From a bacterium (GTDB lineage: Bacteria > Sysuimicrobiota > Sysuimicrobiia > Sysuimicrobiales > Segetimicrobiaceae), in the NCBI GenBank assembly GCA_035295165.1, contig DATGJN010000075.1:1-57207 (forward strand): a DNA stretch of 57,207 nt. Direction: 5' to 3'. The translations under genes were made by a program, and so were the position numbers. Every line of letters starts with the position of its first letter. Positions within the stretch are counted from its first letter, which is position 1. The notes beneath the pieces were generated by a model, which saw nothing but the letters and a program-made list of their open reading frames with translations, did no database searches and was not told the origin of the DNA. Positions 1-49,568 of the stretch are shown here, in pieces.

Positions 1-7
1 AGCTCAT
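1..7 (-). CDS. infB: Probable start of infB (translation initiation factor IF-2), cut by window edge
   Basis: Only an ATG at 7-5 and the next four bases are visible, so the protein cannot be read. The assignment rests on context: rimP-nusA-ylxR-infB is a very conserved order, and this ATG lies 6 nt past the ylxR stop. A GAAGG sequence precedes it as a possible ribosome binding site. This is an inference from synteny; the product is not shown by the sequence. Confidence 0.35.
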
Positions 8-13
8 GGACCT

Positions 14-430: not shown

Positions 431-432
431 CG

Positions 433-1650: not shown

Positions 1651-1744
1651 TCCGGCGTCACCCCCAACATCCCCCGGCGGCCGCCAAACCCGCGGTCGCC
1701 CCACCCTCCACCCGGATCGTCGTGAAGCGGCGCACCCGGCGCGT

Positions 1745-2239
1745 CTACGACCGCCTCAGGTCCTGCCGCAACTCTTCCATGTGGACGACGAGCCGTGCCT
1801 GCGCGATCTCGGTCGGTGCGAAGCGGACCTCGCGCCCGTCGTCGAGCCGCACGGCCACGCGGCCGTCCACTAACCCGAGCAGCCGTCCCCGAAACCGCCG
1901 CTGGCCGTCCACCGGTGCGTACGTCGTGACCGCCACGTTGCGTCCCGAGAACCGCACGAAGTCCTCTGGTTTCCGCAACGGCCGGTCGAGCCCCGGCGAC
2001 GACACCTCCAGCGTGTACGCTCCCAACGGGAGATCGTACAGGTCCAGTTCCCGGCTCAGCGCCTCGCTCAGGCGGGCGCAGTCCTCAACGCCGACCCCGC
2101 CGTCCCGATCCACCAACACCTGCAGCACCTGATGACGCCCCGCGCCGTGCAACTCGACGTCCACGATCTCGAGCCCCATCCGAGCCCCGATCGGCGCAGC
2201 CAGCGCCACCACCTGTCCGGCGACTTCCTGGCGTCTCAT
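1745..2239 (-). CDS. rimP: Ribosome maturation factor RimP
   Basis: A 164-residue protein needed for late maturation of the 30S subunit. It has the two RimP domains: an N-terminal part with LEIVDVELHGAGRHQVLQVL followed by DRDGGVGVEDCARLSEALS, and the diagnostic LEVSSPGLDRPL near the middle, then the small Sm-like C-terminal barrel (GRLLGLVDGRVAVRLDDGREV). The ATG at 2239 is preceded by GAAGGGGAG. An open frame continues about 145 codons upstream across the promoter and is not coding. It is the first gene of the nusA operon, and a leader of about 135 nt separates it from its promoter. Confidence 0.96.
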   Translation of the reverse strand: MRRQEVAGQVVALAAPIGARMGLEIVDVELHGAGRHQVLQVLVDRDGGVGVEDCARLSEALSRELDLYDLPLGAYTLEVSSPGLDRPLRKPEDFVRFSGRNVAVTTYAPVDGQRRFRGRLLGLVDGRVAVRLDDGREVRFAPTEIAQARLVVHMEELRQDLRRS

Positions 2240-2295
2240 CGACTCCCCTTCACACACACGCGCCCCAGCCTTCGGCGCCTCCTGAAGAAGCGAAA

Positions 2296-2319
2296 GAGTG
2301 GGTTTCAAACGACCCACTC
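2296..2319 (-). terminator. Attenuator-like hairpin in the rimP-nusA leader
   Basis: On the minus strand GAGTGGGT and ACCCACTC form a perfect 8-bp stem around an 8-nt loop, followed by a pyrimidine-rich tail starting TTTCGCTTCTTC. It sits inside the 5' leader, after the promoter at 2381-2410 and before rimP at 2239, so termination here would attenuate the operon. The shape is seen directly; regulation by NusA or others is inference. Confidence 0.5.
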
Positions 2320-2380
2320 CCCCGAACGCGCCAAGATTGGGGCACCGTCTTGCGCTAGCGCCGCTAGTGATTCGACTGTG

Positions 2381-2410
2381 AGTATAGCATAGCGCTTGCT
2401 CGACTGACAA
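2381..2410 (-). promoter_or_regulatory. Housekeeping-sigma promoter of the rimP-nusA operon
   Basis: On the minus strand a -35 box TTGTCA (2410-2405) and a -10 box TATACT (2386-2381) are separated by 18 bp. Both are one mismatch from the sigma-70/sigma-A consensus. The predicted transcription start is near 2374, giving a leader of about 135 nt before rimP. Confidence 0.75.
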
Positions 2411-2535
2411 GGACCGCCCCGGCGGGAGGCGCAGGGTGAGATCGCACCCTGGCGGCGGCAGGCGCCGCCGGGGCCCCGGCGAACCCCCCCTCACGCGGTC
2501 GCGACGATGGCCGGCCGCGGGGGAGCGTGCGGGCG

Positions 2536-3225
2536 ATGGGGCGGAAGCTGTCCGGGCGGCCGCGGCGCGCGGGACGGACTGCGGTGACCGCGGTCTGCGG
2601 ACTGCTTGCCGTCGGGTGCGCAACGCCGGGCGCCGTGATCGAGGGCACCGGGGGCGTCGTCGAGCAGGCCCGCGCAATGCCGTACTTCACCGCCGTCCGC
2701 GTCGCCGGCGCCTACGATGTCCACGTGGTTGCCGGCGCGACTCCCGACGTCACAATTCACGCCGACGCGAGCCTACTGCCCTACATCGAGACCTCGATCA
2801 AAGGGGACACCCTGTCCATCGGCACCACGCGCGGCGCGGTGCTTCGTCCCACCCGCACTCCGCGCCTCGATGTCTTCACGCGGGACGTGACCGCGATCGC
2901 CGTCACCGGCACCGCGGACCTCCTCGCCGAGCACCTCACCGGCGACGGCCTGGAGGTACAGATCACCGGCGACGGGCGCGGCACGCTCGCCGGCGCGGTC
3001 CGCGCGCTCCGTATCCGGGTGAGCGGCACGGCCGCCGTGGACGCCCGGAACCTCTCGGCCGACGCTGCGGTCGTGGCGATCAGCGGGGTCGGGGACGTCA
3101 CCGTGACCGCCCGGGACCGCCTCACCGTCGACGTGTCGGGCACCGGCCGGGTGCGCTACGCGGGCCATCCCGCGGATATCACCCAACACGTGAGCGGAAA
3201 CGGTCAGGTCGTACCGGTCCAGTAG
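2536..3225 (+). CDS. Putative lipoprotein with head-GIN/DUF2807-type domain
   Basis: A 229-residue protein, probably exported and lipid-anchored. It opens with a basic stretch and a hydrophobic segment ending LLAVGC, a lipobox that places the lipidated Cys about 25 residues in. The rest matches the DUF2807 (head GIN) pattern: a short FTAVRVAGAYDVHVVAG strand pair followed by repeated parallel beta-helix-like strands (VTGTADLLAE, VQITGDGRGTLAG, VSGTAAVDARNLSA, ISGVGDVTVTA, VSGTGRVRYAG). The family's role is not settled. I chose the ATG at 2536 because GGGGGAG lies about 11 nt upstream; a GTG three codons earlier sits too close to it. The gene is divergent from rimP and convergent with asnS. 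Confidence 0.8.
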   Translation: MGRKLSGRPRRAGRTAVTAVCGLLAVGCATPGAVIEGTGGVVEQARAMPYFTAVRVAGAYDVHVVAGATPDVTIHADASLLPYIETSIKGDTLSIGTTRGAVLRPTRTPRLDVFTRDVTAIAVTGTADLLAEHLTGDGLEVQITGDGRGTLAGAVRALRIRVSGTAAVDARNLSADAAVVAISGVGDVTVTARDRLTVDVSGTGRVRYAGHPADITQHVSGNGQVVPVQ

Positions 3226-3261
3226 CCGGGCGCGCACGCTCCGGCCCGCCGCGGCCCGGTC

Positions 3262-4575
3262 CTACGGATACAACCGGTTGATCAGCCTCGGAAAGGGTAT
3301 CGTCTCCCGCACGTGCTCGAGCCCGCAGATCCAGGTCACCGTCCGTTCGATTCCGATCCCGAATCCACTGTGGGGGACCGCGCCGTAGCGCCGGACGTCC
3401 AAGTACCATTGGTACTCCTCGCGCGGCAGCTTCATCTCGTCGAGACGCCGTGCAAGCAGCGCGTGGTCGTGAATGCGCTCGCCTCCGCCGACGATCTCGC
3501 CGTACCCCTCGGGGGCCAGGAGATCGGCGCCCAGCACGACCTCGGGGCGTTGCGGGTCGGGCTGCATGTAGAACGCCTTGCACCGCGCCGGATACCGATG
3601 CACGAACACCGGCCGGTCGAACTGTCGGCTCAGCACCGTCTCCTCGTCGCCCCCGAAGTCCTCGCCCCACGTGATCGCGGCGCCCTGCGCGCGCAACCGC
3701 TCCACCGCCTCGTCGTACGTGATGCGCGGAAACGGCGGCCGCACGGCCTCCAGCGCGGCGGGATCGCGCTGCACGAGCTCCAACTCGCGGCGCCGCCGCT
3801 CCAGCACCCGCCGCACCACGGCCGTGACCAAGCCTTCCGCCAGGTCCATATAGCCGTCGAGGTCGAGGTACGCGGCCTCGGGTTCCAACATCCAGAACTC
3901 CGTGAGGTGACGGCGCGTCTTTGACTTTTCGGCGCGAAACGTCGGGCCGAAGCAGTAGACGCGCCCAAACGCGGCGGCCGTGGCCTCATTGTACAGCTGG
4001 CCGCTCTGCGTGAGGTACGCGCGCCGCTCGAAGTACGGCGTCTCGAACAGCGTCGTCGTGCCCTCACACGCGGACGGCGTGAGGATCGGGGTATCCATCC
4101 GGAGATAACCGAGCTCGTCGAGATGGTCGCACATTGCCCGCTCGACCTCGGCGCGGATACGCATGATCGCCCACTGCCGCTGGCTGCGGAGCCAGAGGTG
4201 CCGGTGATCCATGAGGAACTCCACGCCGTGCTCCTTCGGCGTGATCGGGTACGGCTCCGCGACGTGCACCACCTGTAGCCGACGAAGCGCCATCTCGTAC
4301 CCGCCGGGCGCCCGCTTGTCCTCGCGCACGAGCCCTTCCACGATGACGGCAGACTCCTGCGTCAGGGCACCCACGGCCTCGAACACGTCCGCCGGAAGCT
4401 CGGCCCGCACCGCCACGGCCTGGAGAATCCCGCTGCCGTCGCGCACGAGCAGGAACCGCAGCGCGCCGCTGCTGCGCAGGTTGTAGACCCATCCGCGAAT
4501 CTCGACGTCCTCGCCCACGTACTCGCCGATGCGCCCGATCGTGGTCCCGACCATGCGACCGCTCCCGTCCATCAT
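3262..4575 (-). CDS. asnS: Asparaginyl-tRNA synthetase
   Basis: A 437-residue class IIb synthetase that charges tRNA-Asn. The N-terminal OB-fold anticodon-binding domain (about 8-115: [20 protein letters not shown]) is followed by the class II catalytic core: motif 2 in [20 protein letters not shown] and motif 3 in [13 protein letters not shown] near the end. The [19 protein letters not shown] block and the QSGQLYNEA segment are characteristic of AsnRS; AspRS has the corresponding FRDED. The start at 4575 overlaps the upstream stop as ATGA, suggesting translational coupling. ATGs at 4572 and 4554 are alternatives, and the last has GGGAG upstream, so the N terminus is uncertain by up to seven residues. 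Confidence 0.95.
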
Positions 4576-22370: not shown

Positions 22371-24641
22371 TCAGTGGGGCACCACCCGCTCGACGTTGTA
22401 GACGTCCTTCACCCGTCCGATCCGATGCATCACGGCCGTCAACTGCGTCACGTTCCCGATGTCCGCGACGATGCTGACGACCGCCACCTTATCCTTCCGC
22501 ACGCGGGCGTTGACCGACACGAGATTGGTCTTCGTCTCGGTGATCGCCCCGAGGATGTCCTTGAGCATGCCGACGCGGTCCAGCGCCTCCACCTCGATCT
22601 CCACCTTGTAGGTGCCGTCCGGCGACGCCTCCCACTCGACCTCGAGCAGCCGCTCCGGCTGCGACCGCAGAAACTGGATGTTCGGACAGTCCGCGCGGTG
22701 AATGCTCACGCCCCGCCCACGTGTGATGTACCCGACGACGCGGTCACCCGGCAACGGACTGCAGCAGCGCCCGAAGCGCATCAGGACGTTATCCACGCCC
22801 CGCACCCGGATCCCGCGCGCGGTGGTCGCCGCCGGCGGCGCCGCCGGCGGGAGCGGCGCCTGCTCCTCCTCGACCGCGGGCGCGCCGCGGAGCGCCTGGA
22901 CGACGTGCAGCAGCGAGACGTCGCCGTTGCCGAGCGCGGCGTACAGCTCGTCCTCGTTCGGCAGGCTGAACCGGGCGGCCACCTCGCGCAGGCGGTCAGG
23001 CTTCATCAGCGCGGCGACGCTCCCGCCGCGGCGCAGTTCCTTCTCCAGCACCTCTTTGCCGCGCACGATGTTCTCGTCGCGGCGCTCCCGCTTGAACCAC
23101 TGCCGGATCTTCGTGCGCGCGTTGCTCGTCTGCACGAACGCCAGCCAATCGCGGCTGGGACCGGCGCTGTTCTTGTTGGTGACGACCTCGACGATGTCGC
23201 CGGACTGCAGCGGGTGACTCAGCGGCACGAGGCGCCCGTTGACCCGCGCGCCGGTCGTGTGGTAGCCAACGTCGGTGTGCACCCGGAACGCGAAGTCCAC
23301 CGGCGTCGCTCCGGAGGGGAGATCAATCACGTCCCCCTTCGGGGTGAAGACGAACACCTCGTTCTGGAACAGGTCGATCTTGACGGAGTGCATGAACTCG
23401 CGCGCGTCCTGGAGCTCCTGGTGCCACTCCAGCAGTTGACGCAGCCACGAGAGCTTTTGCTCGAACGCCGGCTCGCCCTTACCGCCGCCCTCCTTGTACC
23501 GCCAGTGCGCGGCGATGCCGTGCTCGGCCACCCGGTGCATCTGCTGCGTGCGAATCTGAATCTCGAGCGGTTGGCCCTCGTACAGGACCGCGGTGTGAAG
23601 CGACTGATAGCCGCTCGTCTTGGGGTTCGCGATGTAGTCGTCGACCTCGCCGGGGATGGGCTTCCACAGCGCGTGCACGATCCCGAGCGTCTCGTAGCAC
23701 TCCCGGACGTCGTTCACCACCACGCGCACGGCGAGCCGGTCGTAGATCCGCCCGACGCCCTGCCCCTGGTACTTGGGACGCTGCATCTTCTGGTAGATGC
23801 TGTAGACGTGCTTCGGGCGCGCCGTGATCGCGCCGCGATCCACGCGGATCCCGGCCCGGCCCAGCTCGGTGTGCAGCGTCGCGACGACGCGCGCCAGCAG
23901 CGCGTCCTGTTCCTGGCTGCTGCGTTCGAGCTGCCCCGCGATCTCTGTGTGCGCCCCCGGCTCGAGCACCCGGAATGCGCGGTCCTCCAGCTCGCGTTTG
24001 ATGCTGCCGATCCCCAGCCGCTCGGTCAGCGGCGCGTAGATCTCGAGCGTCTCCCGGGCCGTCCGCTTCTGCTTCCACTCGGGGAGGAACTCGATCGTCC
24101 GCATGTTGTGCACGCGGTCGGCGAGCTTGATCAGGATGATGCGGATGTCGCTGGCCATCGCGAGAAACATCTTCCGGAGATTCTCGGCTTGCCGTTCCTC
24201 GCGGGTCTTCCATTCGATGCGGCCGAGTTTCGTTACGCCGTCCACGAGCCCGGCGATCTCCGGCCCGAACTTCGCCTTGATCTCCTCGATCGGATGGGCG
24301 GTGTCCTCAGGGACGTCGTGCAGCAGCGCCGCGGCGATCGTCGCGGAGTCCAGGCGCAAGCCGACCAGGATGTCGGCCACCGCCACGGCATGATGCACGT
24401 ACGGCTCGTTGGAGGCCCGGGTCTGCCCGGCGTGGGCGGCCTCCGCGAACAGATACGCGCGACGGATCAGGTCGCGGTCGGCGTGCGGGATCGTCTCACG
24501 GACGTGGCGCAGCAGCGCCTCCGCATCCTCCGGCAGCGCCTCCTCGGCGTTCCCGCGGACGAGGTGGAGGCGCTTCATCGCTCCGGCCACGACATCCGCC
24601 GGGCCCGGTGCTTTCGCGCCGCCTGGCTGTTCCGCGCTCAT
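22371..24641 (-). CDS. rel: Bifunctional (p)ppGpp synthetase/hydrolase Rel (RelA/SpoT)
   Basis: A 756-residue stringent response enzyme with the full long-RSH architecture. The HD hydrolase (about 60-200) retains YVHHAVAVADIL, ALLHDVPEDT and LIKLADRVHNMRT. The synthetase (about 225-345) has RPKHVYSIYQKMQ, YDRLAVRVVV and NPKTSGYQSLHT. A TGS domain starts near VFVFTPKGDVIDLPSGATP, followed by a zinc-finger/helical region (FGRCCSPLPGDRVVGYITRGRG) and a C-terminal ACT domain. Both catalytic halves look intact. GGGGAGGGG precedes the ATG at 24641. It follows recJ by 17 nt, a common Gram-positive order. Confidence 0.96.
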   Translation of the reverse strand: MSAEQPGGAKAPGPADVVAGAMKRLHLVRGNAEEALPEDAEALLRHVRETIPHADRDLIRRAYLFAEAAHAGQTRASNEPYVHHAVAVADILVGLRLDSATIAAALLHDVPEDTAHPIEEIKAKFGPEIAGLVDGVTKLGRIEWKTREERQAENLRKMFLAMASDIRIILIKLADRVHNMRTIEFLPEWKQKRTARETLEIYAPLTERLGIGSIKRELEDRAFRVLEPGAHTEIAGQLERSSQEQDALLARVVATLHTELGRAGIRVDRGAITARPKHVYSIYQKMQRPKYQGQGVGRIYDRLAVRVVVNDVRECYETLGIVHALWKPIPGEVDDYIANPKTSGYQSLHTAVLYEGQPLEIQIRTQQMHRVAEHGIAAHWRYKEGGGKGEPAFEQKLSWLRQLLEWHQELQDAREFMHSVKIDLFQNEVFVFTPKGDVIDLPSGATPVDFAFRVHTDVGYHTTGARVNGRLVPLSHPLQSGDIVEVVTNKNSAGPSRDWLAFVQTSNARTKIRQWFKRERRDENIVRGKEVLEKELRRGGSVAALMKPDRLREVAARFSLPNEDELYAALGNGDVSLLHVVQALRGAPAVEEEQAPLPPAAPPAATTARGIRVRGVDNVLMRFGRCCSPLPGDRVVGYITRGRGVSIHRADCPNIQFLRSQPERLLEVEWEASPDGTYKVEIEVEALDRVGMLKDILGAITETKTNLVSVNARVRKDKVAVVSIVADIGNVTQLTAVMHRIGRVKDVYNVERVVPH

Positions 24642-24658
24642 GCCCCTCCCCGTCGCGA

Positions 24659-27600
24659 CTATGCGCGCGCCGCGCGTTGGATCTCCGCCGGCGCGGCCCG
24701 CTCCACCCACGCGGCGAACGCATCGAACGCCGCACGCTCGCGGACGCCCTCGCGAAACCGCAACGAGACGTTGAGGTCACGCCGCGCGTCCGCGGGCACC
24801 AATCGCACCGACCACCCCGACCCGACGCTCTCGCGCACGGCCAGCCCGACCTCCTCGAACACCGCGCAGGCCGCGCCCACCGTCGCGCGCGCGGCCTCGG
24901 GGACCGCGGCGCGGACGCGCGCCCAGGTCTCCTCGTCCGGCCAGGCAATGGGGTCGCCCCCACGCCACTCGCGAAGCGCGCGGTAGATCCGGACCAGCAG
25001 GTCGCGGCCGGGAGACCGGATCTCGATCGCCCGGCGCCGTACCTCCCGGCAGCCGGCGCCGAACGCGAGCGTCACCGTGGATGGACGCCGGTCCAGCCCC
25101 ACCGTGGCACAGGCGGCGAGCAACTCACGGCGCCCGCTCGGAAACGACGCCAAGACGGCCCGCCGCAGATCGTGCGGCACCGCCTCCTCGTGCAGCATCG
25201 TCGTCACAAGCACCCTGAGCCGTCCCTCCTCGAACGCCCGCGCCACCACGTGTCGCACCCGCCCCGGCAGGCCCTCATGCAGGTACCCGATCCGCGCGTC
25301 CGCGCCCGCCCGTTCCCGCAGGCGAGTCGCCAGGCGCACGCATCCCTCGGGCGACGCAGTATAAACGACGGTTTTCTCGCCTACGTTGACCACTTCCTCT
25401 ACCACGGCGTCCGGGTCGGCGGCGTCCCGCCGGTCCTCGAAGCGCACGAGCGGGCGCGCGGGATCGTCCCGCAGCAGCGGCACACCGGGTCGGCCGCGCA
25501 CCAGTGCGGCGGCCTCCGTCGGCTCACCGATGGTCAGCGTAGTGCGGCGCAGGATCGTCGGCGGCAACGTCGCGACATCCGCGAGGGAGACGCCGTCGAG
25601 CACGGTCACCGTCGCCCGGTCGACCCACGGCGCCACCAACGTTCCCTCGCGTGCCGCTTCCACGCTCGCGACCACAACATCCGCGGCCCCCGCGCGGAGC
25701 GCGGCCAGCGCCCGATCCCGCTGTCCGATGCCGAGCAGGCCGTGCACCGGTTGCACCCGGAGGCCGAGCCCGCCGAGCTGGGCCGCCAACTGTTCGCCGC
25801 GGCGGACGGCGTCGCACCACAGCGGTTCAACCACGAGCGCGCCCAGTTCACCGCCCGCCGCCACCGCGGCGGCTCCGGCGATCACCGTGACCCATCCTCG
25901 CCCCGGGGACGCCGCGAGCACGACCGAACGGCCCCGGGCGATCTCGGCCAGCGCCTCAGCCTGGGCGGGCCGCAGGGGGCGTCCGCCGTTGACGTAGATC
26001 GGCAACCGCGCGATCGCCGCGTCCCGGTCCAGCGCGCGCCACGCCCGCCGGGACGAGGCGCCGAATGCGGTGGGCTCGCCGTCCTCGCGCTGAACGTAGA
26101 GGTTCACGCCGAGCGTGCGGTCCCCGCCGCCCGTGACCGCAGACACCGTCGCCCGGTACCGCCCGCCCGCGTCCATCCCGGGCGCGATCCGCCCGGCGAC
26201 GCGCGCACTGAGATAGCCCACCATGCGGCCGTCCGCGGTCGCGACGCGGACGGCGTGCGGGTCGTACGGGTTCGCAGGCTCGCGTCGGAGCGACAGCGGA
26301 TCGCCCTGCACAAGCGTGGCGATCACCGTCTGACGATCGTCGAACGTCACCCCGGCGACCTTGGTGTAGAATTCCGGCGCGTTCTCGCGGTCGTCCTCGG
26401 GTCGGTCGAGATAGTCGTCCGCCCGCCGAAACAGCCGATCCACGAGCAGGCCCGTATCCGACAGCACCGTCGCCGGATCGAGGCCCGGAACCTCCAACGC
26501 GCGCAGCCGGAGGCGAACCCGTCCCGGCTCGAACCGATCGAGCTCCGGCACGAACGCTAGGTCCACCGAGGCGTCGGTGAAGCTCAGCACCTCGCCGAGC
26601 GCCGCCATCGAGAACCCAATCGTCTCAGCGAACACCGACCCGTCCGTGACGCCCATGCGCAGGTGCGCGCCGTCTCCCACGAGCCGCCGCGTCACCGCGC
26701 GGACGGCCCGCACCGCGAGCACCGGTTGGGGATTGCCCGGCCCGAACGGCGCGAGGGCGTCCAGCGCGGTCACGAGGGCTACGGTCACGTCCGGGAGCGC
26801 GAGTTCGGCATCAACGTCGAGCGGCGCCGCCCGCGCGGGCGCACGCTCTGCGGCCACCTCCAGGAACGCGCGGCGAAATCCGTCGATCTCGGCGCCGTCG
26901 ATCGACAGTCCCGCGGCCATCGCGTGCCCACCGAACCCGCGCAGGTGGGCGCGGCAGGCGCCGAGCGCCTCCACCAGGTGAAATCCCTCGACGCTGCGCG
27001 CCGAGCCCCGGCCGGTTCCGCCCGCAAGCGCCACGGCCACTGCCGGGCGGCCGTACTGCTCCGCCAGCCGCCCGGCGACGAGCCCGACGACCCCCGGATG
27101 CCACCCCTCGCCGGCGACCACGAGCGCCGCCCCATCAGGTTCGGGCCCGACCTGCGCGAGCGCCTCTGCCAACACGTGCTCGAGGACGGCCTGCCGCTCG
27201 CGGTTGGCCTCGTCGAGGGTCTGCGCCAGCGCTCGTGCCTCCACAGGATCGTCCGTGAGCAACAGGCGCAGGGCGGGCGTCGGATCACCGAGCCGGCCCG
27301 GCGCGTTGAGCCGGGGGCCGAGCTGCCAGCCGACGTGCCACGCCTCCACCGGCCCCGTGATTCCCGCGATCTCCAGGAGGGCTTTGAGACCCTCGGCCGG
27401 CGCGGCGCGCAGTTGCGCGAGCCCGCCCGCGGCCAGCCGTCGATTGGCGCCGCGCAGGGGCACGACGTCGGCGATCGTGCCGAGCGCGGCGAGGGCCGCG
27501 AGGTCTACCGGCGCCCCGCGCCCCGCGACGCGCCGACGCAGCGCCCACGCGAGCAGGAACGCGAGGCCGGCCGCGCAGGGCGCGTCCGTGCGCCCCTCGT

Positions 27601-28174
27601 CCGCCGCACCGCCGTGGGCGTCGGGCGCCACGATCACGGCGGCCGGCCGCTCGGACCCGGGCATGTGGTGGTCCACGACCACGACGTCGAGCCCCAACGC
27701 CCTGGCGCGGGCGACCGCCTCCACCGCGGTAATGCCGCAGTCCGCCGCGATCAACACGCGGGCGCCCTGGGCCGCGAGTTCCTCCACGGCGCGCACGCCG
27801 AGACCGTACCCGTCCCGCGTCCGGTGCGGCACGTACCACAACGGGTCCGCGCCGAGGCCGCGCAGGGTGCGCACGAGAATCGCGGTCGCGCAGATGCCGT
27901 CCACGTCGTAGTCACCGTGCACCGCCAGCGGCTCCCCCGCCTCGAGCGCGCGGGCGAGCCGCTCCGTCGCGTCCGCCATGCCCGGAACCGTCAGCGGGTC
28001 GGAGAGACCGTCAAGGGAGGGGTTGAGAAAATCGCGCGCCGCCGGAACGGTGACGATCCCGCGGCGCCGGAGGATCCCGCCAACGATCGGCGGCACGCCG
28101 ACCGCGCGCGCGAACGCCTCCGCCTCGGGATCGGGAGGCGCCACCACCCAGGAGGTTTTGTTGGCGACGGCCAT
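24659..28174 (-). CDS. recJ: RecJ single-strand exonuclease fused to HIRAN domain and helicase-like module
   Basis: About 1171 residues, roughly twice the usual RecJ length. Residues 1-575 are a full RecJ: DYDVDG (about 88), ADCGIT, VVDHHMPG (about 168) for metal binding, RLNAPGRLGD, GRGSARS and GGHAMAAG (DHHA1), then the OB domain. Residues about 602-696 match a HIRAN domain (KVAGVTFDDRQ, REPANPYDPHAVRV, GRMVGYLSARVA, GVNLYV), a module that binds 3' DNA ends in fork-remodelling helicases. Residues about 725-1010 resemble two RecA-like helicase lobes, but Walker A reads AASPGRGWVT, without the Lys and Ser/Thr. RecJ degrades ssDNA 5' to 3' in recombination and repair. The start is an ATG (GTG at 28177 is an alternative) directly after a TATAAT box, without a ribosome binding site. 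Confidence 0.93.
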   Translation of the reverse strand: MAVANKTSWVVAPPDPEAEAFARAVGVPPIVGGILRRRGIVTVPAARDFLNPSLDGLSDPLTVPGMADATERLARALEAGEPLAVHGDYDVDGICATAILVRTLRGLGADPLWYVPHRTRDGYGLGVRAVEELAAQGARVLIAADCGITAVEAVARARALGLDVVVVDHHMPGSERPAAVIVAPDAHGGAADEGRTDAPCAAGLAFLLAWALRRRVAGRGAPVDLAALAALGTIADVVPLRGANRRLAAGGLAQLRAAPAEGLKALLEIAGITGPVEAWHVGWQLGPRLNAPGRLGDPTPALRLLLTDDPVEARALAQTLDEANRERQAVLEHVLAEALAQVGPEPDGAALVVAGEGWHPGVVGLVAGRLAEQYGRPAVAVALAGGTGRGSARSVEGFHLVEALGACRAHLRGFGGHAMAAGLSIDGAEIDGFRRAFLEVAAERAPARAAPLDVDAELALPDVTVALVTALDALAPFGPGNPQPVLAVRAVRAVTRRLVGDGAHLRMGVTDGSVFAETIGFSMAALGEVLSFTDASVDLAFVPELDRFEPGRVRLRLRALEVPGLDPATVLSDTGLLVDRLFRRADDYLDRPEDDRENAPEFYTKVAGVTFDDRQTVIATLVQGDPLSLRREPANPYDPHAVRVATADGRMVGYLSARVAGRIAPGMDAGGRYRATVSAVTGGGDRTLGVNLYVQREDGEPTAFGASSRRAWRALDRDAAIARLPIYVNGGRPLRPAQAEALAEIARGRSVVLAASPGRGWVTVIAGAAAVAAGGELGALVVEPLWCDAVRRGEQLAAQLGGLGLRVQPVHGLLGIGQRDRALAALRAGAADVVVASVEAAREGTLVAPWVDRATVTVLDGVSLADVATLPPTILRRTTLTIGEPTEAAALVRGRPGVPLLRDDPARPLVRFEDRRDAADPDAVVEEVVNVGEKTVVYTASPEGCVRLATRLRERAGADARIGYLHEGLPGRVRHVVARAFEEGRLRVLVTTMLHEEAVPHDLRRAVLASFPSGRRELLAACATVGLDRRPSTVTLAFGAGCREVRRRAIEIRSPGRDLLVRIYRALREWRGGDPIAWPDEETWARVRAAVPEAARATVGAACAVFEEVGLAVRESVGSGWSVRLVPADARRDLNVSLRFREGVRERAAFDAFAAWVERAAPAEIQRAARA

Positions 28175-28182
28175 CACTTTGA

Positions 28183-28188
28183 ATTATA
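28183..28188 (-). promoter_or_regulatory. -10 box of recJ, leaderless-type
   Basis: A perfect TATAAT lies on the minus strand with its last base 8 nt before the recJ ATG at 28174 (5 nt before the GTG at 28177). No Shine-Dalgarno fits in this space, so the transcript probably begins at or near the start codon. No convincing -35 is present at 17-18 bp; a TTGACG lies 25 bp upstream of the -10. Confidence 0.55.
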
Positions 28189-28215: not shown

Positions 28216-29511
28216 TCAACCCAGATGGACGCCCGGGACGTGCGCGCCACACCCGTTCAGCGCGAACTCGAAGATGTCAAAGTTCCGCAGGCCCTGGTTC
28301 GCCCGCGCGGCATAGTCGCGGGTCACCGGGTGCGACACGATGAACGGCACGGGTTGCTCGGTTACACCGCCGTGCGACCGAAGCCGCGCCCCGACGAGGT
28401 GCGTCAGGTCGTGCTCGACGACCCGCGAGCCGATCGCACACCCGCGTCTGGCCACGACGGCGATATCGGCCTCCCGGTCCTCGGGCAAGTCGAACCGCGC
28501 ACAGGCGTCCTCCCGCGACAACGCGCATTCCACGGCGGGCAGCGCGCCGATGAACCGCAACACGGTGGCGCGCTCGATCCCGGGACGCATCAGATACACG
28601 CGGACGAAGCCGCCGAGCGCGCCGTGGTGCCTGACAAACGGGTCGGTGATCGGACAGATCACCCGGGTCGCCCCCGCTCCGAACGCCGCGTCCAGTCGAT
28701 CGCCGAGATAGAGCACATTCGGGCGGCCGTCCGGCAGCGCCATGTCGGTCATGCCGTGGTCGGCCACGACCCCGACGCGGGCCCCGCACGCCGCGAGCCG
28801 CCCGAGGCGTTCGTCCACGGCGCCCATGAACACGTTGGCCTCCGGAGACCCCGGCGCGTGCTTGTGCTGCACGTAATCCGACAACGACAGGTAGGTCAGA
28901 TCGGGGCGGCGCGTCTCCAGCAAACGGATCCCGGCGTCCAGCACAAACAAGGAGAGATCGGCCGAGTACGGATCCGGCGCCGAGCGGCCGACCAACTCGA
29001 CGACCCCGTCTATGCCGTTCTCGGCGATCGTGCACGACCCAGCCCGCTCGGCCGAAAAGACGACACCGGTGACCCCCGCCCCCAGCGCCAGCCGCAGCTT
29101 GTCCTTGGCGGTAATCACCGCGACCGCGGCGCCCGCGTCGGAGAACCGCGCGAGGATCGTCGGCGCCCGGAGCGGCTGCGCGTCGACCATCATGACCTCC
29201 CGCCCGGTCTCCCGCTCGAGATAGTAGTTCCCCGACACCCCGTGGATCGCCGGAGGGGCGCCGCAGACAATGGAGATGTTGTTCGGGTTCGTAAACGTCG
29301 GCATCGCCGCCGAGGCGATGGCCGCGAACCCCTCGCGCGTCATGCGGTCGATCACCGGGATCACGCCCGCGGCACGCGCGGCCGCAATGTACGCGGGGTC
29401 GCATCCGTCGATGCAGACGACGACCACCGGCAGCACGGGCCAGCGCAGCACGCGCCCGTTGACGGGAACCGGTGCCTTCCCGGCGCCGCGAGCGCGCTCG
29501 GCCAATGACAT
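28216..29511 (-). CDS. phnA: Phosphonoacetate hydrolase PhnA-like (alkaline phosphatase superfamily)
   Basis: A 431-residue di-zinc hydrolase. VVVCIDGCDPAYI supplies Asp35, MPTFTNPNN supplies the probable nucleophile Thr74, TYLSLSDYVQHKHAPG supplies an Asp/His pair, VVADHGMTD another Asp-His, and LRSHGGVTEQPVPFI the last His. This set and the HGVSGNYYLERETGREVMMV block match phosphonoacetate hydrolase, which splits phosphonoacetate to acetate and phosphate; a related phosphonate or phosphodiester substrate remains possible. No phosphonate transport or regulatory gene is adjacent. The ATG at 29511 follows GGAGG at a rather long 12-nt spacing. The gene is followed closely by the recJ promoter. 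Confidence 0.85.
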   Translation of the reverse strand: MSLAERARGAGKAPVPVNGRVLRWPVLPVVVVCIDGCDPAYIAAARAAGVIPVIDRMTREGFAAIASAAMPTFTNPNNISIVCGAPPAIHGVSGNYYLERETGREVMMVDAQPLRAPTILARFSDAGAAVAVITAKDKLRLALGAGVTGVVFSAERAGSCTIAENGIDGVVELVGRSAPDPYSADLSLFVLDAGIRLLETRRPDLTYLSLSDYVQHKHAPGSPEANVFMGAVDERLGRLAACGARVGVVADHGMTDMALPDGRPNVLYLGDRLDAAFGAGATRVICPITDPFVRHHGALGGFVRVYLMRPGIERATVLRFIGALPAVECALSREDACARFDLPEDREADIAVVARRGCAIGSRVVEHDLTHLVGARLRSHGGVTEQPVPFIVSHPVTRDYAARANQGLRNFDIFEFALNGCGAHVPGVHLG

Positions 29512-29703
29512 GTGCTCGGTTCGCCTCCTGTCGTCCCGGCCGCGTGTCGAGCTCACGGGGTGACACATCTCAAGACCGCATCCGGAGACAGCGTCCGGGT
29601 TAACGGCTCGGGAACGGACGGCGAAGACCTGGGCCAGGCGCTCCGGCGGACGGAACGCCAGGGGCTCCGCCCTCGAGCGCGGGGGCGGCGCGTCCGGGCG
29701 CGG

Positions 29704-30037: not shown

Positions 30038-31081
30038 CTACCGCCGTCGGCGGCCGCTCCGGCGCCGTCCGGCTCCCGGCCTGACTGGGGCGTTCAGCAC
30101 CGGCGCCACCATCGCCTCGTCGCCGCTGCCATCGCCGCTCGGCGCCGGCTCCCGGGGCCCAGCCGCGGGACGCGGGGCGGACGCGCTCGACGACGGGTGC
30201 CGCCGCTCGGCCCAGTTGTGCCAGTCCACCAGAATCGGGCTGGCGTTGAAGATCGAGGAGTACCCGCCGGTGACGATCGACACCACCAGGCCGAACGCGA
30301 CGCCGCGAATCGTCTCCCCGCCAAACACGTAGACCGCGCCGATCGCCAGCACCGCGGTCATCGCGGTGTTGATCGACCGGACGAGCGCCTCGAGCACGCT
30401 GCGGTTGACGAGCGGCTCGAACGGCTCGCGGGTCCGCATGTTCAGGTTCTCGCGGATCCGGTCGAAGATCACGATCGTGTCGTTGATGGAGTAGCCGGCG
30501 ACCGTGAGCAGCACCGCGAGGAACGAGCTGTCGACCTCGAACTGGGTCAGCGCGAACGCCCCAATCACCACGAGCAGGTCGTGCAGCAACGCCACGTCCG
30601 CCGCGATCGCGAACCGGATCGAGCGGAACCGGATCGAGATGAAGATTACCTGCAGGATGATGCCGAGCACGACGCCCATGATCGCCGCGTTGCGCAGCTC
30701 GGCCCCGATCTCGGGCCCCACCGTGTCCTCGCGCAGCATCTGCGTGTGCGTGAACTTGGCCCGCACGGCGTCGGTGATCTGGTTCATCTGCAGTTGGGTG
30801 AGCGGCCGCGTCTTGATGAAAACTTCGTTCTGACCGGACCGCTGGATCACCGCATCGGCCAACCCGAACCCAGTGATCACGTTCCGGATGTCCCCGTCCG
30901 AGAACGGATCGTTGATCTGCAGTTCCAGCTGGTTGCCGCCGGTGAAGTCGACGCCCCAGTTGAGGGCGTGATGATCCCTCACGTGATGCACGTACAGCGC
31001 GATGAGCCCCGGAATGATCACCGCGAGCGATAATAGATAGTACCATCGGCGGTGACGGATCAGATTGAACGTCTTGTCCAC
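30038..31081 (-). CDS. secF: Protein translocase subunit SecF
   Basis: A 347-residue RND-type membrane protein that, with SecD, uses the proton gradient to help complete protein export through SecYEG. FNLIRHRRWYYLLSL starts TM1, NWGVDFTGGNQLEL is the SecF signature after TM1, and TM2-TM6 carry GAELRNAAIMGVVLGI, ALLHDLLVVIGAFAL, LTVAGYSINDTIVIFDRIREN (proton-path motif) and RSINTAMTAVLAIGAVY. A tail of about 60 residues rich in Pro/Ser/Gly/Arg is longer than usual. The GTG at 31081 follows GGGAGAG and lies 4 nt after the secD stop. Confidence 0.97.
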   Translation of the reverse strand: MDKTFNLIRHRRWYYLLSLAVIIPGLIALYVHHVRDHHALNWGVDFTGGNQLELQINDPFSDGDIRNVITGFGLADAVIQRSGQNEVFIKTRPLTQLQMNQITDAVRAKFTHTQMLREDTVGPEIGAELRNAAIMGVVLGIILQVIFISIRFRSIRFAIAADVALLHDLLVVIGAFALTQFEVDSSFLAVLLTVAGYSINDTIVIFDRIRENLNMRTREPFEPLVNRSVLEALVRSINTAMTAVLAIGAVYVFGGETIRGVAFGLVVSIVTGGYSSIFNASPILVDWHNWAERRHPSSSASAPRPAAGPREPAPSGDGSGDEAMVAPVLNAPVRPGAGRRRSGRRRR

Positions 31082-31085
31082 GCGC

Positions 31086-32471
31086 CTACTCTCCCGCGCC
31101 GGCGGCGCCGCCGCCCTGGGCCGCGAGCGGCCGCCCCCGCCCCAGGAACGCCAGGTTCTGGATCCACGCGGCGAGCGACGGGACGTCGAGGGCGATGTCC
31201 ACGAACACGCGCGTCACCACGATCGCCGTGAAAATGCTCGTGAGGATGCCGAGGATCAGCGTCACCGCGAACCCACGGACCGGCCCGGTGCCGAGCCAGA
31301 GCAGGACCAGTGCGCCGATGAGAGTCGTGGCGTTGGAGTCGAGGATCGTCACGATCGCCCGGCTCCACCCCGTCGCCACCGAGGCGCGGAGCGTCTTCTG
31401 CGCGCGCAGTTCTTCTTTGACCTTCTCGAAGATGATCACGTTCGCGTCCACGGCGACGCCGAGCGACAGAATGAACCCCGCGATGCCCGGCAGGCTGAGC
31501 GTCGCGCCGATCCCCGCCATGAGGGCGAACAGGATCAGCGTGTAGACGACGAGCGCGACGTCGGCGAGCAGGCCCGCGAACCGATAGTAGAGGAACATGA
31601 ACAGGGCGACGAGCACGATCGCGATCTCCCCGGCGCGGATGCTCCGATCGATCGAGTCCCGACCGAGCACGGGACCCACCGTCCGATTCTCGACCACGGT
31701 CACGGGCAGCGGCAGCGCGCCGGCTCGCAACAGCACGGCGAGGTCCCGCGCGGAGTCGAGCGTAAAACCGCCTTCGATCACGCCCTTCCCGCCGGGAATC
31801 GGGCTGTTGATCACGGGCGAGCTGATGACCCGGCTGTCGAGCACGATGGTGAGGTATTTCCCGATGTTCTTGGTGGTGTAGTCCTCAAATTTCTTTGCGG
31901 CGGAGCTCTTGAACGTGAATCCGACCTGCGGCCGGCCGAATTGGTCAAAGGTGACCTGCGCGTCGCTCAGGTCGGCGCCGGTCAGCAGCACGCTCTTGTG
32001 CAGCTTGATCGTCGATTTGTCCTGGGGCAGCACGACCGTGTCCGACCCCTGCCACTCCGCGCCCGCGGGCAGCGACTGCGTCGCCGTGTCCACGAACTCC
32101 AAGAGCGCGGTCTTTCCGATGATGTCGATCGCGCGCTGGGGATTCTGGATGCCGGGGAGCTGCACCTGAATTCGGTTCGGGCCCTGGCGCGCGATGTCGG
32201 GCTCGGCCACGCCGAGCTGGTCCACGCGGTTGCGAATCACGCGCAGCACGCCGTCCATCGCGTCGTTGCTGATCGGGGTCTGCGCGGTGGGCTGCGCCTG
32301 CAGCACGATGTTGCTGCCGCCCTGGAGATCGAGCCCAAGGTTGAGGTGCGGGCGCGGCGTCTGAAACACGGGCGTCGCCCCGTCCATGCGGACAGGTTGG
32401 AACGCGACGCCGAACGCCGCGAGCGCGATCACGAGCACTCCGATCAGGCGGAGCGGGTGGCTCAGTTTCAC
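31086..32471 (-). CDS. secD: Protein translocase subunit SecD
   Basis: A 461-residue membrane protein, a typical Gram-positive-length SecD. TM1 is LRLIGVLVIALAAFGVAF, then LNLGLDLQGGSNIVLQ (the D1 signature), a periplasmic P1 region with VIRNRVDQLGVAEPDIARQGPNRI split over the fold, LRAGALPLPVTVVENRTVGP before TM2, and the core motifs FALMAGIGATLSLPGIAG and GVAVDANVIIFEKVKEEL. It pairs with SecF for secretion. The GTG at 32471 is preceded by GGAGGG. A consensus promoter lies about 50 nt upstream. Confidence 0.97.
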   Translation of the reverse strand: MKLSHPLRLIGVLVIALAAFGVAFQPVRMDGATPVFQTPRPHLNLGLDLQGGSNIVLQAQPTAQTPISNDAMDGVLRVIRNRVDQLGVAEPDIARQGPNRIQVQLPGIQNPQRAIDIIGKTALLEFVDTATQSLPAGAEWQGSDTVVLPQDKSTIKLHKSVLLTGADLSDAQVTFDQFGRPQVGFTFKSSAAKKFEDYTTKNIGKYLTIVLDSRVISSPVINSPIPGGKGVIEGGFTLDSARDLAVLLRAGALPLPVTVVENRTVGPVLGRDSIDRSIRAGEIAIVLVALFMFLYYRFAGLLADVALVVYTLILFALMAGIGATLSLPGIAGFILSLGVAVDANVIIFEKVKEELRAQKTLRASVATGWSRAIVTILDSNATTLIGALVLLWLGTGPVRGFAVTLILGILTSIFTAIVVTRVFVDIALDVPSLAAWIQNLAFLGRGRPLAAQGGGAAGAGE

Positions 32472-45191: not shown

Positions 45192-48100
45192 ATGAGCCTC
45201 GCCCTGTTTCATCCGTTAGTCACCCGTTGGTTCGTCCAGCGGTTCGACGCGCCCACCGCCGCCCAGGTCGCCGGGTGGGCGGCGATCGGCAGCGGGCGGG
45301 ACACCCTCGTCGCCGCGCCCACCGGATCTGGCAAGACGCTCGCCGCGTTCCTGTGGTCGGTGAACGGGCTCGTCCGCGAAGGCGCCACCGGGGGTCTCCG
45401 CGACGGCACGTCCGTCGTATACGTCTCGCCGCTCAAGGCGCTCGGCAACGACATCCAGCGCAACCTCGTGACGCCGCTCGAAGAACTGAGGCGGCTGGCC
45501 GCGACCGAAGGGACGACGCTCCCCGAAATTCGGGTGGCGGTCCGCTCGGGCGACACACCCGCGCGCGAACGAGCGCTTATGCTCCGGCGGCCGCCGCACA
45601 TCTTGATCACCACGCCGGAGTCGCTCTATCTGCTCCTGACGGCAGAGCGGAGTCGGGAGTTTCTGCGCACGGTACGGACGGCGATCGTCGACGAGATCCA
45701 CGCCGTCGCCGGGGACAAACGCGGCGCGCACCTCGCGCTCTCGCTCGAGCGGTTGGACCTCCTGACGGGCACCCGCTGCCAGCGCATCGGTCTATCGGCC
45801 ACCCAACGACCGATCGAGGAAATCGCCCAGCTACTCTCCGGGTCGGCGCGGAACGGCCGCGGGCCGAGCTCGGAGTGTACGATCGTCGACACGGGCCACC
45901 GCCGGCCGTGGGAGTTGGCGGTGGAGGTGCCGGGTCCGCCGCGCGGTCCGATCGCCACGCATGAGATGTGGGACGCGATTTACGACCGCGTGGCCGCGCT
46001 CGTGCGGGCCCACCGAACCACGCTCGTGTTTGTGAACACGCGGCGGCTAGTCGAACGCGTGGCGCACCACCTGACGCTGCGACTGGGCGAGGGGCGGGTC
46101 GCCGCGCATCACGGCAGCCTGTCCCGACAGATCCGACTGGACGCCGAGCAGCGTCTGCGCGCTGGGGACGTCCCGGTGGTGGTGGCCACGGCGTCCCTCG
46201 AACTCGGCATCGACATCGGTCACGTGAACCTGGTCTGCCACCTCGGCGCGCCGCGCGCGATCGCCACGCTGCTCCAGCGCGTCGGACGCTCGGGGCACGG
46301 CGTGGCGGAAACGTCCAAGGGCGTGCTGTTCCCGCTCACGCGGGACGATTTGATGCAGGGCGCGGCCGTCGTACGCGCGGCGCGGGCAGGCGACCTGGAC
46401 GGCGTCGTGCTGCCCGACAAACCCCTCGACATTCTCGCGCAGCAGATCGTCGCCACCGTCGCGACGCAGGAGATCGCCGAGGACACACTCTTTGACGTCG
46501 TGCGGCGCGCGCACCCCTACCGCGATCTCACCCGGGGCGAGTTCGACCAAGTCGTGGGGGTGCTCGCGGAAGGCGTGGCCCGCCGACTCGGCCGGACGAC
46601 CGCGTTGCTCCACCGCGACGGCGTGCACCGCGTCCTGCGGCCCAGACGCGGCGCGCGCCTTGCGGCGATCACCTCGGGCGGCGCGATCCCGGACACCGCG
46701 GACTACGACGTGGTGCTGGAGCCGGACGGAACCGTCGTCGGCACCGTCAACGAGGATTTTGCCGTGGAGAGCATGGCGGGCGAGACGTTCCTGCTCGGGA
46801 ACACCTCCTGGAGAATCCGCCGTATCGAGGCGGGGCGGGTGCGCGTCGTGGACGCGCACGGTGCGCCGCCGTCGGTGCCGTTCTGGATCGGTGAGGCGCC
46901 CGCGAGGACGCCGGAGCTCTCCGCCGCGGTGTCCGCGCTCCGCGGAGACATCGCCGCGCGCCTCGAGGATCGGGCGGCGGCATCCGCCTGGCTCGCGGCC
47001 GAGGCGGGCGTGGATGCGGACGGCGCGGCGCAGGCGGTGGACTACGTCGCCGAGACCGTGGCGTCGTTGGGCTGCGTCCCGTCCCAGGAAACGATCGTCG
47101 CCGAGCGGTTCTTCGACGAGGCCGGCGGGATGCAGGTCGTGCTGCACACGCCGTTCGGCGCGCGGATCAACCGGGCGTGGGGGCTCGCGCTGCGGAAGCG
47201 GTTCTGCCTGACGTTCGACTTCGAGCTGCAGGCCGCGGCGACGGACGACGGGATCGTGCTCTCGCTCAGCCAGCAGCACAGCTTCCCCCTCGACAGTCTC
47301 TTCGGGTTCGTGCGGACCCGGACGGTGGAAAAGGATCTCGTCCAGGCGCTGCTCGCGACACCGCTGTTCACGACGCGCTGGCGGTGGAACGCCACGCGGT
47401 CCCTCGCGCTGCTGCGTCACATGGGCGGCCGACGCGTGCCGATGCCGATCCAGCGGATGCGGTCCGACGACCTCCTCGGGGCGGTGTTCCCGGAGCAGGT
47501 GGGCTGCCAGGACAATCACATGGGGCCGATCGAGCCGCCCGACCACCCGCTTGTGACCGAAACGATCCGCAACTGTCTGCACGAGGCGATGGACCTCGAC
47601 GGTCTGCGCGGGGTCCTCGGCGCGCTGGAGGCCGGCGCCATCCGCGCGGTTGCGGTGGAGACGCCGACCCCGTCGCCGATGTCGCAGGAGATCCTGAACG
47701 CGAACCCGTACGCGTTCCTCGACGACGCGCCGCTCGAAGAGCGGCGCGCCCGCGCGGTCTCGCTTCGGCGTACCGACCCCGATCTCGCGCGCGGCGTCGG
47801 GGCGCTCGACCCCGCGGCGATAGCCGAGGTCCGCGCGCAAGCGTGGCCGGACGTCCGGACCGCCGACGAACTACACGACCACCTGCTGACGGTCGGCGTG
47901 CTCCCGGTTGAAGACGTGCTGTCCTGGACGCATCCGCCCGGCGGACCGCAACTGGCCGACGCGCTGGTCGCGGCCGGGCGCGCCGTCGTCGCCCGGTGGG
48001 CCGACGTCGCAGGCCGCGAGCGGCGCGCCTACGTCGCCGCCGAACGCGTGGCGCTCGTCGGCACGGCGCTGCCGGGCGCGCGATTCGACCCGGCCCCGGC

Positions 48101-49568
48101 GGCGCACGACGCCTCATCCTCCGCGCCGCCCGGCGGATCGGCGACGATCGGGCGCAGCGACGCGGTGCGGGAAATCGTGCACGGGTGGCTGCAGTGCATC
48201 GGCCCCGCCACGGCCGGCGGCCTCGCGGACAGGATCGGCCTCCCGGTCGCCGACGTCGAGGCCGCGCTCGCCGTGCTGGAGGGCGCGGGGACCGTGCTGC
48301 GCGGGCGATTCACGCTGCGGCCGGACAGACTCGAGTGGTGCGAGCGACGGCTGCTGGCGCGTATCCACCGTCTGACGCTCGGCCGGCTCAGGCGCGAGAT
48401 CGAACCGGTTGAACCGGCCGCGTTCATGCGGTTTCTCCTGCGCTGGCACCACGTGCAACCGGGAACACAGCTGTACGGCCGGGACGGGGTCGCCGCGGTC
48501 GTCGCGATGCTAGAGGGCGTGGAGGTGCCCGCACCCGCGTGGGAGGAGCATGTGCTCCCTGCGCGGATCCGCGAGTACAATCCGGCGGATCTGGACGCGT
48601 TGTGCCTCGACGGCACGGTCACGTGGGGGCGGGTTCCCGCGAACCGACCGGCCGCCGAACCGGAGGATGAAGCCGGCGCGCGGGTCAAGCCCGGTCACCC
48701 ATGGCCCGGCCTCTCGCGCGCCGTCCCGATCACGCTCGCGCTACGCGACAACCTGCCCGCCCTCCTCGGGCCCGGCGCGCATGTCGAGGAGACGCCGGGG
48801 CTCAGCCACGCCGCGCGCGACGTGGCGGGCGTCCTGGCGGCGCGCGGCGCGTCGTTCCTCCTCGATATCGCCCGCGCCGTGCGCCGCCTTCCGGCGGAGG
48901 TCGAAGCGGCGCTCTGGGAACTCGTCGCCGCCGGGATCGTGACGGGAGACGGACTAGCGGGGCTGCGTCGCCTGGTGCACGGCGCGCCGCGCGCCCGGCG
49001 CCGGCATCGCGCGTCTCTTTCGGCGGTCGGAAGACGGGTGTCAGCACGGCCACTCCCGGCGGGACGCTGGGCGATCTGGGACCCGGGCGCCGAACCGCTT
49101 AGCGCCGACGAACGCACCGACGCGCTCGCCCGCCGATTGCTGCAGCGCTACGGAGTGGTCTTCCGCGACCTGCTGGCGCGCGAGCGATGTGCGCCGGCGT
49201 GGCGCAGCCTGCTCGACCGTTATCGACGGTGGGAAGCCCAAGGCGCGATTCGCGGCGGGCGGTTCGTTGCGGGATTCACCGGAGAGCAGTTCGCGCTCCC
49301 GGAGGCGGTCGACGCGCTGCGGGCCGTTCGCCGGACGCCCGACGAGACGCGCGAGGTCGTCGTCTCGGCGGCCGACCCGCTCAACCTGATCGGGGTGGTG
49401 CTCCCGGGTACCCGGGTGTCACCGCTCTCTGGGCTTGCGATCGCGTTCCGGAACGGCGTCCCAGTCGACGTCGCTCCGCGCGGCGCGCTCCTCGCGCGGC
49501 TGAGCCTGGCCGCACACGGGCCTGCGTCGCCGACCGCCGCCGCCACGCCCGTGCCGCGGCGCCCGTGA
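45192..49568 (+). CDS. lhr: Lhr-family superfamily 2 DNA helicase (long form)
   Basis: A 1458-residue ATP-dependent 3'-5' helicase. Motifs: Q-like FDAPTAAQVAGW, Walker A AAPTGSGKT (about 42-49), TTPESLYLLL, Walker B AIVDEIHAV, motif III LSATQRP, motif IV LVFVNTRRLVERVA, motif V VVVATASLELGIDIG and motif VI LLQRVGRSGH. The Lhr-core winged-helix and domain 4 follow, then a long C-terminal extension found in bacterial full-length Lhr, including WNATRSLALLRHMGG and ANPYAFLDDAPLEERR. Lhr is linked to repair of crosslinked or alkylated DNA; its tail carries uracil glycosylase activity in E. coli. It has TGATG overlap with the next gene. Confidence 0.95.
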   Translation: MSLALFHPLVTRWFVQRFDAPTAAQVAGWAAIGSGRDTLVAAPTGSGKTLAAFLWSVNGLVREGATGGLRDGTSVVYVSPLKALGNDIQRNLVTPLEELRRLAATEGTTLPEIRVAVRSGDTPARERALMLRRPPHILITTPESLYLLLTAERSREFLRTVRTAIVDEIHAVAGDKRGAHLALSLERLDLLTGTRCQRIGLSATQRPIEEIAQLLSGSARNGRGPSSECTIVDTGHRRPWELAVEVPGPPRGPIATHEMWDAIYDRVAALVRAHRTTLVFVNTRRLVERVAHHLTLRLGEGRVAAHHGSLSRQIRLDAEQRLRAGDVPVVVATASLELGIDIGHVNLVCHLGAPRAIATLLQRVGRSGHGVAETSKGVLFPLTRDDLMQGAAVVRAARAGDLDGVVLPDKPLDILAQQIVATVATQEIAEDTLFDVVRRAHPYRDLTRGEFDQVVGVLAEGVARRLGRTTALLHRDGVHRVLRPRRGARLAAITSGGAIPDTADYDVVLEPDGTVVGTVNEDFAVESMAGETFLLGNTSWRIRRIEAGRVRVVDAHGAPPSVPFWIGEAPARTPELSAAVSALRGDIAARLEDRAAASAWLAAEAGVDADGAAQAVDYVAETVASLGCVPSQETIVAERFFDEAGGMQVVLHTPFGARINRAWGLALRKRFCLTFDFELQAAATDDGIVLSLSQQHSFPLDSLFGFVRTRTVEKDLVQALLATPLFTTRWRWNATRSLALLRHMGGRRVPMPIQRMRSDDLLGAVFPEQVGCQDNHMGPIEPPDHPLVTETIRNCLHEAMDLDGLRGVLGALEAGAIRAVAVETPTPSPMSQEILNANPYAFLDDAPLEERRARAVSLRRTDPDLARGVGALDPAAIAEVRAQAWPDVRTADELHDHLLTVGVLPVEDVLSWTHPPGGPQLADALVAAGRAVVARWADVAGRERRAYVAAERVALVGTALPGARFDPAPAAHDASSSAPPGGSATIGRSDAVREIVHGWLQCIGPATAGGLADRIGLPVADVEAALAVLEGAGTVLRGRFTLRPDRLEWCERRLLARIHRLTLGRLRREIEPVEPAAFMRFLLRWHHVQPGTQLYGRDGVAAVVAMLEGVEVPAPAWEEHVLPARIREYNPADLDALCLDGTVTWGRVPANRPAAEPEDEAGARVKPGHPWPGLSRAVPITLALRDNLPALLGPGAHVEETPGLSHAARDVAGVLAARGASFLLDIARAVRRLPAEVEAALWELVAAGIVTGDGLAGLRRLVHGAPRARRRHRASLSAVGRRVSARPLPAGRWAIWDPGAEPLSADERTDALARRLLQRYGVVFRDLLARERCAPAWRSLLDRYRRWEAQGAIRGGRFVAGFTGEQFALPEAVDALRAVRRTPDETREVVVSAADPLNLIGVVLPGTRVSPLSGLAIAFRNGVPVDVAPRGALLARLSLAAHGPASPTAAATPVPRRP

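Follow-up and report, generated by a model that had tools for sequence, protein, structure and literature searches.

In a 57,207-nucleotide stretch of contig DATGJN010000075.1 (assembly GCA_035295165.1; the whole stretch is referred to as the window), from a bacterium of the phylum Sysuimicrobiota (= CSP1-3, also labelled ANGP1; described in PMC11604079), the recJ gene was found to encode a RecJ exonuclease which continues in frame into a HIRAN domain and a RecQ-like helicase body whose motor, judged from its aligned motifs, is dead. Virtually all of the phylum's 43 genomes carry this RecJ-HIRAN-pseudohelicase, its dead lobes are under purifying selection, and their most likely role is to position DNA or a protein partner for the nuclease. 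The open reading frame occupies positions 24659 to 28177 on the minus strand, begins with a GTG start codon at 28177 and is predicted to encode 1172 amino acids; the original prediction, which gave the span as 24659-28188, was right about the frame but placed its end 11 bases too far. Its proposal that an intact RecJ core runs in frame into HIRAN and helicase-like modules was confirmed by Pfam and NCBIfam domain matches. An assembly or frame artefact was ruled out, as the same in-frame fusion is present in dozens of other genomes of the phylum.

The RecJ core spans residues 1-565 (26483..28177, minus strand, as for all parts of the protein). Within it, DHH (residues 85-234), DHHA1 (352-442) and RecJ_OB (455-557) matched over the Pfam gathering score, and the protein scored 428.9 bits against the recJ equivalog model TIGR00644 (cut-off 396.9). 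The catalytic residues D89, D91, D93, D146, D169-H170-H171 and G416-G417-H418 were invariant in an alignment of 36 sequences. A full-length AlphaFold model was obtained (predicted local distance difference test (pLDDT) 87.5, predicted template modelling score (pTM) 0.80), for which the best PDB folds over the core were the RecJ proteins of Staphylococcus aureus (8Y30) and Deinococcus radiodurans; these share the DHH/DHHA1/OB arrangement and intact catalytic residues and gave the best full-length structural match, but are only approximately 700-760 amino acids long and have neither a HIRAN domain nor a whole helicase. All 11 Sysuimicrobiota loci inspected have the gene order secD-secF-recJ-relA, which is also found in many Clostridia and Coriobacteriia; by locus the fusion gene is the ordinary, orthologous housekeeping recJ, and by family its product is assigned as a 5'-3' single-stranded DNA exonuclease.

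The HIRAN domain lies at residues 603-692 (26102..26371), close to the span of about 602-696 originally proposed, with a PF08797 match at 603-684 of 50.8 bits (gathering cut-off 24.7); it is the only HIRAN domain over cut-off in the window genome. When the C-terminal half was searched against PDB sequences, HIRAN gave the only convincing match, to the HIRAN domain of HLTF (E 4.7e-5 over 46 residues, including NPYD), and the mean identity of the HIRAN motif columns was 0.80-0.88 in the dead Sysuimicrobiota set. Unlike the window HIRAN, that of HLTF is fused to a working SWI/SNF motor; its residues Y72 and Y93 border a DNA-binding cavity (PMC4666394). Binding of 3' ends by the window HIRAN is plausible from its homology to HLTF alone.

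The remainder of the protein consists of a RecQ-like lobe 1 (residues 715-905; 25463..26035), a lobe 2 (906-1040; 25058..25462) with a Pfam Helicase_C match at 927-998 (31.0 bits, gathering cut-off 23.5), and a winged-helix/tail region (1041-1172; 24662..25057) which, by alignment, bears the motif RRDLxxSxRxxEG and is shared with the tails of Bacillota RecJ proteins. An AlphaFold model of residues 585-1172, built from 51 sequences, was confident (pLDDT 90.3, pTM 0.88), and the top Foldseek matches in the PDB were RECQL5 (E 2.2e-14), E. coli RecQ and WRN, all of which have the same fold and the same order of two RecA lobes. The C-terminal half was accordingly assigned, from this model, as homologous to RecQ helicases, and as diverged rather than closely alike since TM-scores against RecQ-family structures were modest (up to approximately 0.6 of the target). 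The kinship was found through folds and through live relatives (fusions with intact helicase motifs), not through the window protein's own PDB sequence search, nor did the protein score over the cut-off of the RecQ family model TIGR00614 in the NCBIfam scan. A two-lobed superfamily 2 helicase, with RecQ as its nearest kind, had thus been correctly anticipated, and both profile searches and structure prediction of this half bear it out; the lobes extend over about 715-1040, approximately 325 residues rather than 280, and the winged-helix/tail region had not been named. It differs from the RecQ family in lacking ATPase and helicase motifs, in being carried on RecJ and in having HIRAN in front.

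Loss of the motor was assessed by aligning 32 distinct Sysuimicrobiota sequences with 23 live relatives. The former Walker A (residues 757-763; 25889..25909) reads SPGRGWV in the window protein, where live relatives have GTGRGKS; the lysine column, which aligns with W762, holds lysine in 23/23 live relatives and in 0/32 Sysuimicrobiota sequences. At the former motif II (DExH; D861-G862 and following, 25583..25597) the glutamate is present in 23/23 live but only 1/32 Sysuimicrobiota sequences and the histidine in 0/32, while at the former motif VI (residues 1021-1030; 25088..25117) the first arginine finger is kept in none and the second in 3/32, both being present in all live relatives. Motifs III and V are also lost, and over the former motifs I, Ia, Ib, II, III, IV, V and VI mean column identity was 0.17-0.53 in Sysuimicrobiota compared to 0.80-0.97 in the live set. 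On this alignment the motor is read as dead across the phylum, so that the proposed loss of the Walker A lysine, and with it the unlikelihood of ATP hydrolysis, held and proved both deeper (motifs I, II, III, V and VI) and phylum-wide. An apparent Walker A found by pattern (GGGKT) in sequence L010 proved coincidental: it falls in the motif IV region, and no lysine stands at the aligned position.

Matches were obtained in 41/41 genomes of one Sysuimicrobiota search and 43/43 of another, some of them cut by contig ends. The incomplete genomes G034 and G042 gave only weak helicase-like matches, of which the G034 piece belongs to another helicase, and the fusion is not shown in these two. Full length is kept across seven families; the most eroded forms, in G019 and G022, are 1109-1126 amino acids long with C-terminal profile scores of approximately 230-240 bits.

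Fusions with intact motifs (GTGRGKS, DESHH/DEAHH, TATA, SAFGEG and QxxGRAGRDG) were identified in Thermincola, Orenia, Frackibacter, Peptococcaceae and other Clostridia, in Halanaerobiales and in Coriobacteriia. In the phylum of one live relative, approximately 25 of 299 sampled genomes had the fused form, as judged by E-value and frame length. A profile of the live relatives matched RecQ best among PDB families (4tmu, 210 bits), and since all helicase motifs are kept the live fusions look like the classical RecQ-RecJ resection pair joined in a single polypeptide. Bacillota also contain dead or degenerate fused forms: six genomes of the order of Orenia and Frackibacter have them (G350, G354, G356, G357, G230 and G355), as do G075, G204 and G351 elsewhere. 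The G204 fusion, of 1091 amino acids, has no detectable HIRAN, and the same genome encodes a stand-alone live HIRAN-helicase of 657 amino acids approximately 750 kb away.

On a RecJ-core tree (unrooted, quick method) Sysuimicrobiota formed a single clade with support 100, and the live state required 8 changes, at least 4 of them forced by well-supported branches. The direction of change was argued from the unlikelihood of a piecemeal gain of partial lobes; on this phylogeny the ancestor of the sampled Sysuimicrobiota lost the motor once, with several further losses in Bacillota. A mirror case was found in Eremiobacterota, where three loci (L060, L061 and L069) have a live HIRAN-RecQ-like helicase as a separate gene directly after secD-secF, and RecJ is absent from the genomes of the first two. 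Of 98 Eremiobacterota genomes, the helicase profile had matches in 53 (in one, G395, no stronger than for an ordinary RecQ) and RecJ occurred in 28, but in none were both present (Fisher P = 4e-13, with genomes that are not phylogenetically independent). Because the two were never found together, the simplest reading is loss of the nuclease here with retention of the helicase, the opposite of Sysuimicrobiota.

Shorter forms were found in the tails of ordinary Bacillota RecJ proteins. Of 22 such tails (approximately 100-500 amino acids), most matched the end of the helicase profile, i.e. lobe 2, the winged helix and the DLxxS tail, with E-values calculated for a tiny database; one (L189) weakly matched both Helicase_C and PF10141 (ssDNA-exonuc_C). 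In profile-profile comparison with the helicase, 12 tails reached a probability of 99.4% and three tails of PF10141 type one of 95.9%; reversed and column-shuffled controls did not exceed 0.6%, ruling out chance similarity. The window protein has no PF10141 match in Pfam at E <= 10, and the kinship appears by profile-profile comparison only. The same PF10141-type tail ends the S. aureus RecJ structure 8Y30. These comparisons indicate that the tails are homologous to lobe 2 and the winged helix of the live helicase, and they are probably worn-down remnants of a fused helicase. A limited literature search found no publication stating this.

Selection was assessed from the ratio of nonsynonymous to synonymous substitution rates (dN/dS). 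Across five Sysuimicrobiota pairs the RecJ core had dN/dS values of 0.15-0.23 and HIRAN values of 0.04-0.12; lobe 1 gave 0.25-0.37, lobe 2 0.15-0.45 and the winged helix/tail 0.11-0.26. The dead-lobe values were mostly 0.15-0.31, the highest coming from one pair (L036/L142). Three live pairs gave 0.05-0.12 for the lobes where the synonymous rate was not saturated. The dead lobes are therefore relaxed about two- to four-fold compared to live ones, yet far from neutral, and purifying selection on them follows from values far below 1. HIRAN is the most constrained part of the Sysuimicrobiota protein, better kept than the nuclease core. HIRAN is also relaxed (0.41) in a dead pair from Halanaerobiales (L170/L171), where the whole HIRAN-helicase unit may therefore be decaying. 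Between the two sets, 41 columns that were at least 95% conserved in live relatives were lost in the dead set, and 23 (e.g. H812, Y965, P971 and R1146) were conserved in the dead but not the live set.

Taken with about even confidence, the inactivated RecQ-family body and HIRAN form an ATP-independent module that positions DNA or a protein for RecJ. By analogy with HLTF (PMC4666394), HIRAN would capture either a 3' end of DNA or, at a junction, the 3' strand; the dead lobes would serve as a rigid spacer or scaffold; and lobes, HIRAN and winged-helix tail together would hold DNA or a partner so that the RecJ channel can take in the opposite 5' strand. Other enzymes, such as an AddAB/AdnAB-like helicase-nuclease, would do the unwinding. 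Several observations weigh against this proposal. Motifs Ia and Ib, which contact single-stranded DNA in live helicases, are eroded as well in Sysuimicrobiota; the earlier idea of the dead lobes as a DNA clamp is weakened by this, HIRAN and the winged-helix tail being the better-kept parts. The equivalent of HLTF Tyr93 is a tyrosine (Y638) in the window protein and a histidine in most relatives, the newly conserved columns come from one clade and are inflated by shared ancestry, and the faster evolution of the lobes than of the core could mean that part of their retention is structural.

AddB and RecC provide a precedent, in which an inactivated helicase is kept as a DNA scanner within a resection enzyme (PMC4824097). 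The likeness is an analogy of working and not of membership: AddB and RecC are superfamily 1 proteins which form separate subunits, work alongside a live motor and recognise Chi, whereas the window fusion belongs to superfamily 2, sits on the nuclease chain and has no known motor partner or sequence. A bolder version by this analogy, in which the dead RecQ and HIRAN would be an end or junction reader that licenses RecJ without ATP, a single-chain superfamily 2 counterpart of the AddB/RecC Chi scanner, with the Bacillota tails (including those of model species) as reduced forms, is considered doubtful. WRN and exonuclease-DinG likewise join an exonuclease and a superfamily 2 helicase in one polypeptide, as does the live RecJ-HIRAN-RecQ fusion, but their exonucleases are 3'-5' DEDD enzymes, not RecJ. 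No described RecJ-HIRAN or RecJ-RecQ fusion was found in literature searches.

The genomes were also searched for unwinding enzymes. Nearly all Sysuimicrobiota genomes had large open reading frames carrying a PDDEXK_1 nuclease domain, which fits AddAB/AdnAB, so an enzyme of this type is probably present in nearly every one; G019 and G022 had only small, weak matches, and their resection machinery may therefore differ from that of the rest of the phylum. No RecQ over cut-off was found in 42 of the 43 genomes. The sole one, in the window genome, lies within a DinG-type helicase fused in frame to RecQ (L213, contig C17, 23500-30500; bases 3-4367, 1455 amino acids in the stretch seen, of an 1800-amino acid frame), and the next gene begins with a histidine-kinase/HSP90-like (sacsin-like) ATPase, the DinG and ATPase names being assigned by eye. 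It looks like an accessory or defence locus and not a housekeeping RecQ. Docking of the dead module to RecQ, as originally proposed, is unlikely because the phylum has no housekeeping RecQ. RarA, the other suggested partner, is encoded in the window as a RarA/MgsA AAA+ ATPase (PF12002; 12530-13888, minus strand), approximately 11 kb from recJ.

A possible but less favoured explanation is that the dead body serves as a docking scaffold: it would recruit RecJ through a bound partner (SSB, a separate helicase, RecO or the replisome), itself making no contact with DNA. The erosion of motifs Ia and Ib alongside the ATPase motifs fits this, as does a net charge near zero, and the newly conserved positions could form a protein interface; however, the strong constraint on HIRAN points to DNA, as does the kept winged-helix tail, a DNA-binding type of fold in RecQ. 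It is unlikely that the module is instead a vestige with no specific job, decaying everywhere towards a short PF10141-type tail and kept only because RecJ folding tolerates or needs it. The graded Bacillota series (full live, full dead, lobe-2 remnant, tail of approximately 100 amino acids), the relaxation of the lobes relative to live ones and the relaxed HIRAN of the halanaerobial pair agree with such decay, but Sysuimicrobiota retain full length phylum-wide at dN/dS values far below 1, with HIRAN better kept than the nuclease core. That ATP hydrolysis persists through an unusual motif is very improbable: a glycine-rich P-loop remnant (SPGRG) and D861 (present in the window protein and in 22/32 sequences) survive, but the lysine, the S/T, the catalytic glutamate, the DExH histidines, the SAT-like motif, motif V and the arginine fingers are all lost.

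Of the conserved neighbours in the window, relA/spoT (22371..24710, minus strand; TIGR00691, 771 bits) lies directly downstream of recJ, and secF (30038..31081; PF02355) and secD (31086..32471; TIGR01129, 443 bits), both on the minus strand, lie upstream. Between secF and recJ lies a phosphonoacetate hydrolase gene (28216-29568, minus strand; TIGR02335, 575 bits), which is probably a local insertion, since tblastn found no copy in 32 related loci. The window also encodes a large Lhr-type helicase (45192-49568, plus strand) with DEAD, Helicase_C and Lhr winged-helix domains.

The live fusions would thus represent the classical RecQ and RecJ resection partners joined in one natural polypeptide, whose motor appears to have disappeared, with the body retained, at least once for a phylum and on several occasions in Bacillota. 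The kinship of the tails suggests an origin for the unexplained C-terminal domain of Bacillota RecJ, and the live, dead, shortened and nuclease-less forms together make up a natural series from which it may be learned what an immobile helicase body does for a nuclease.

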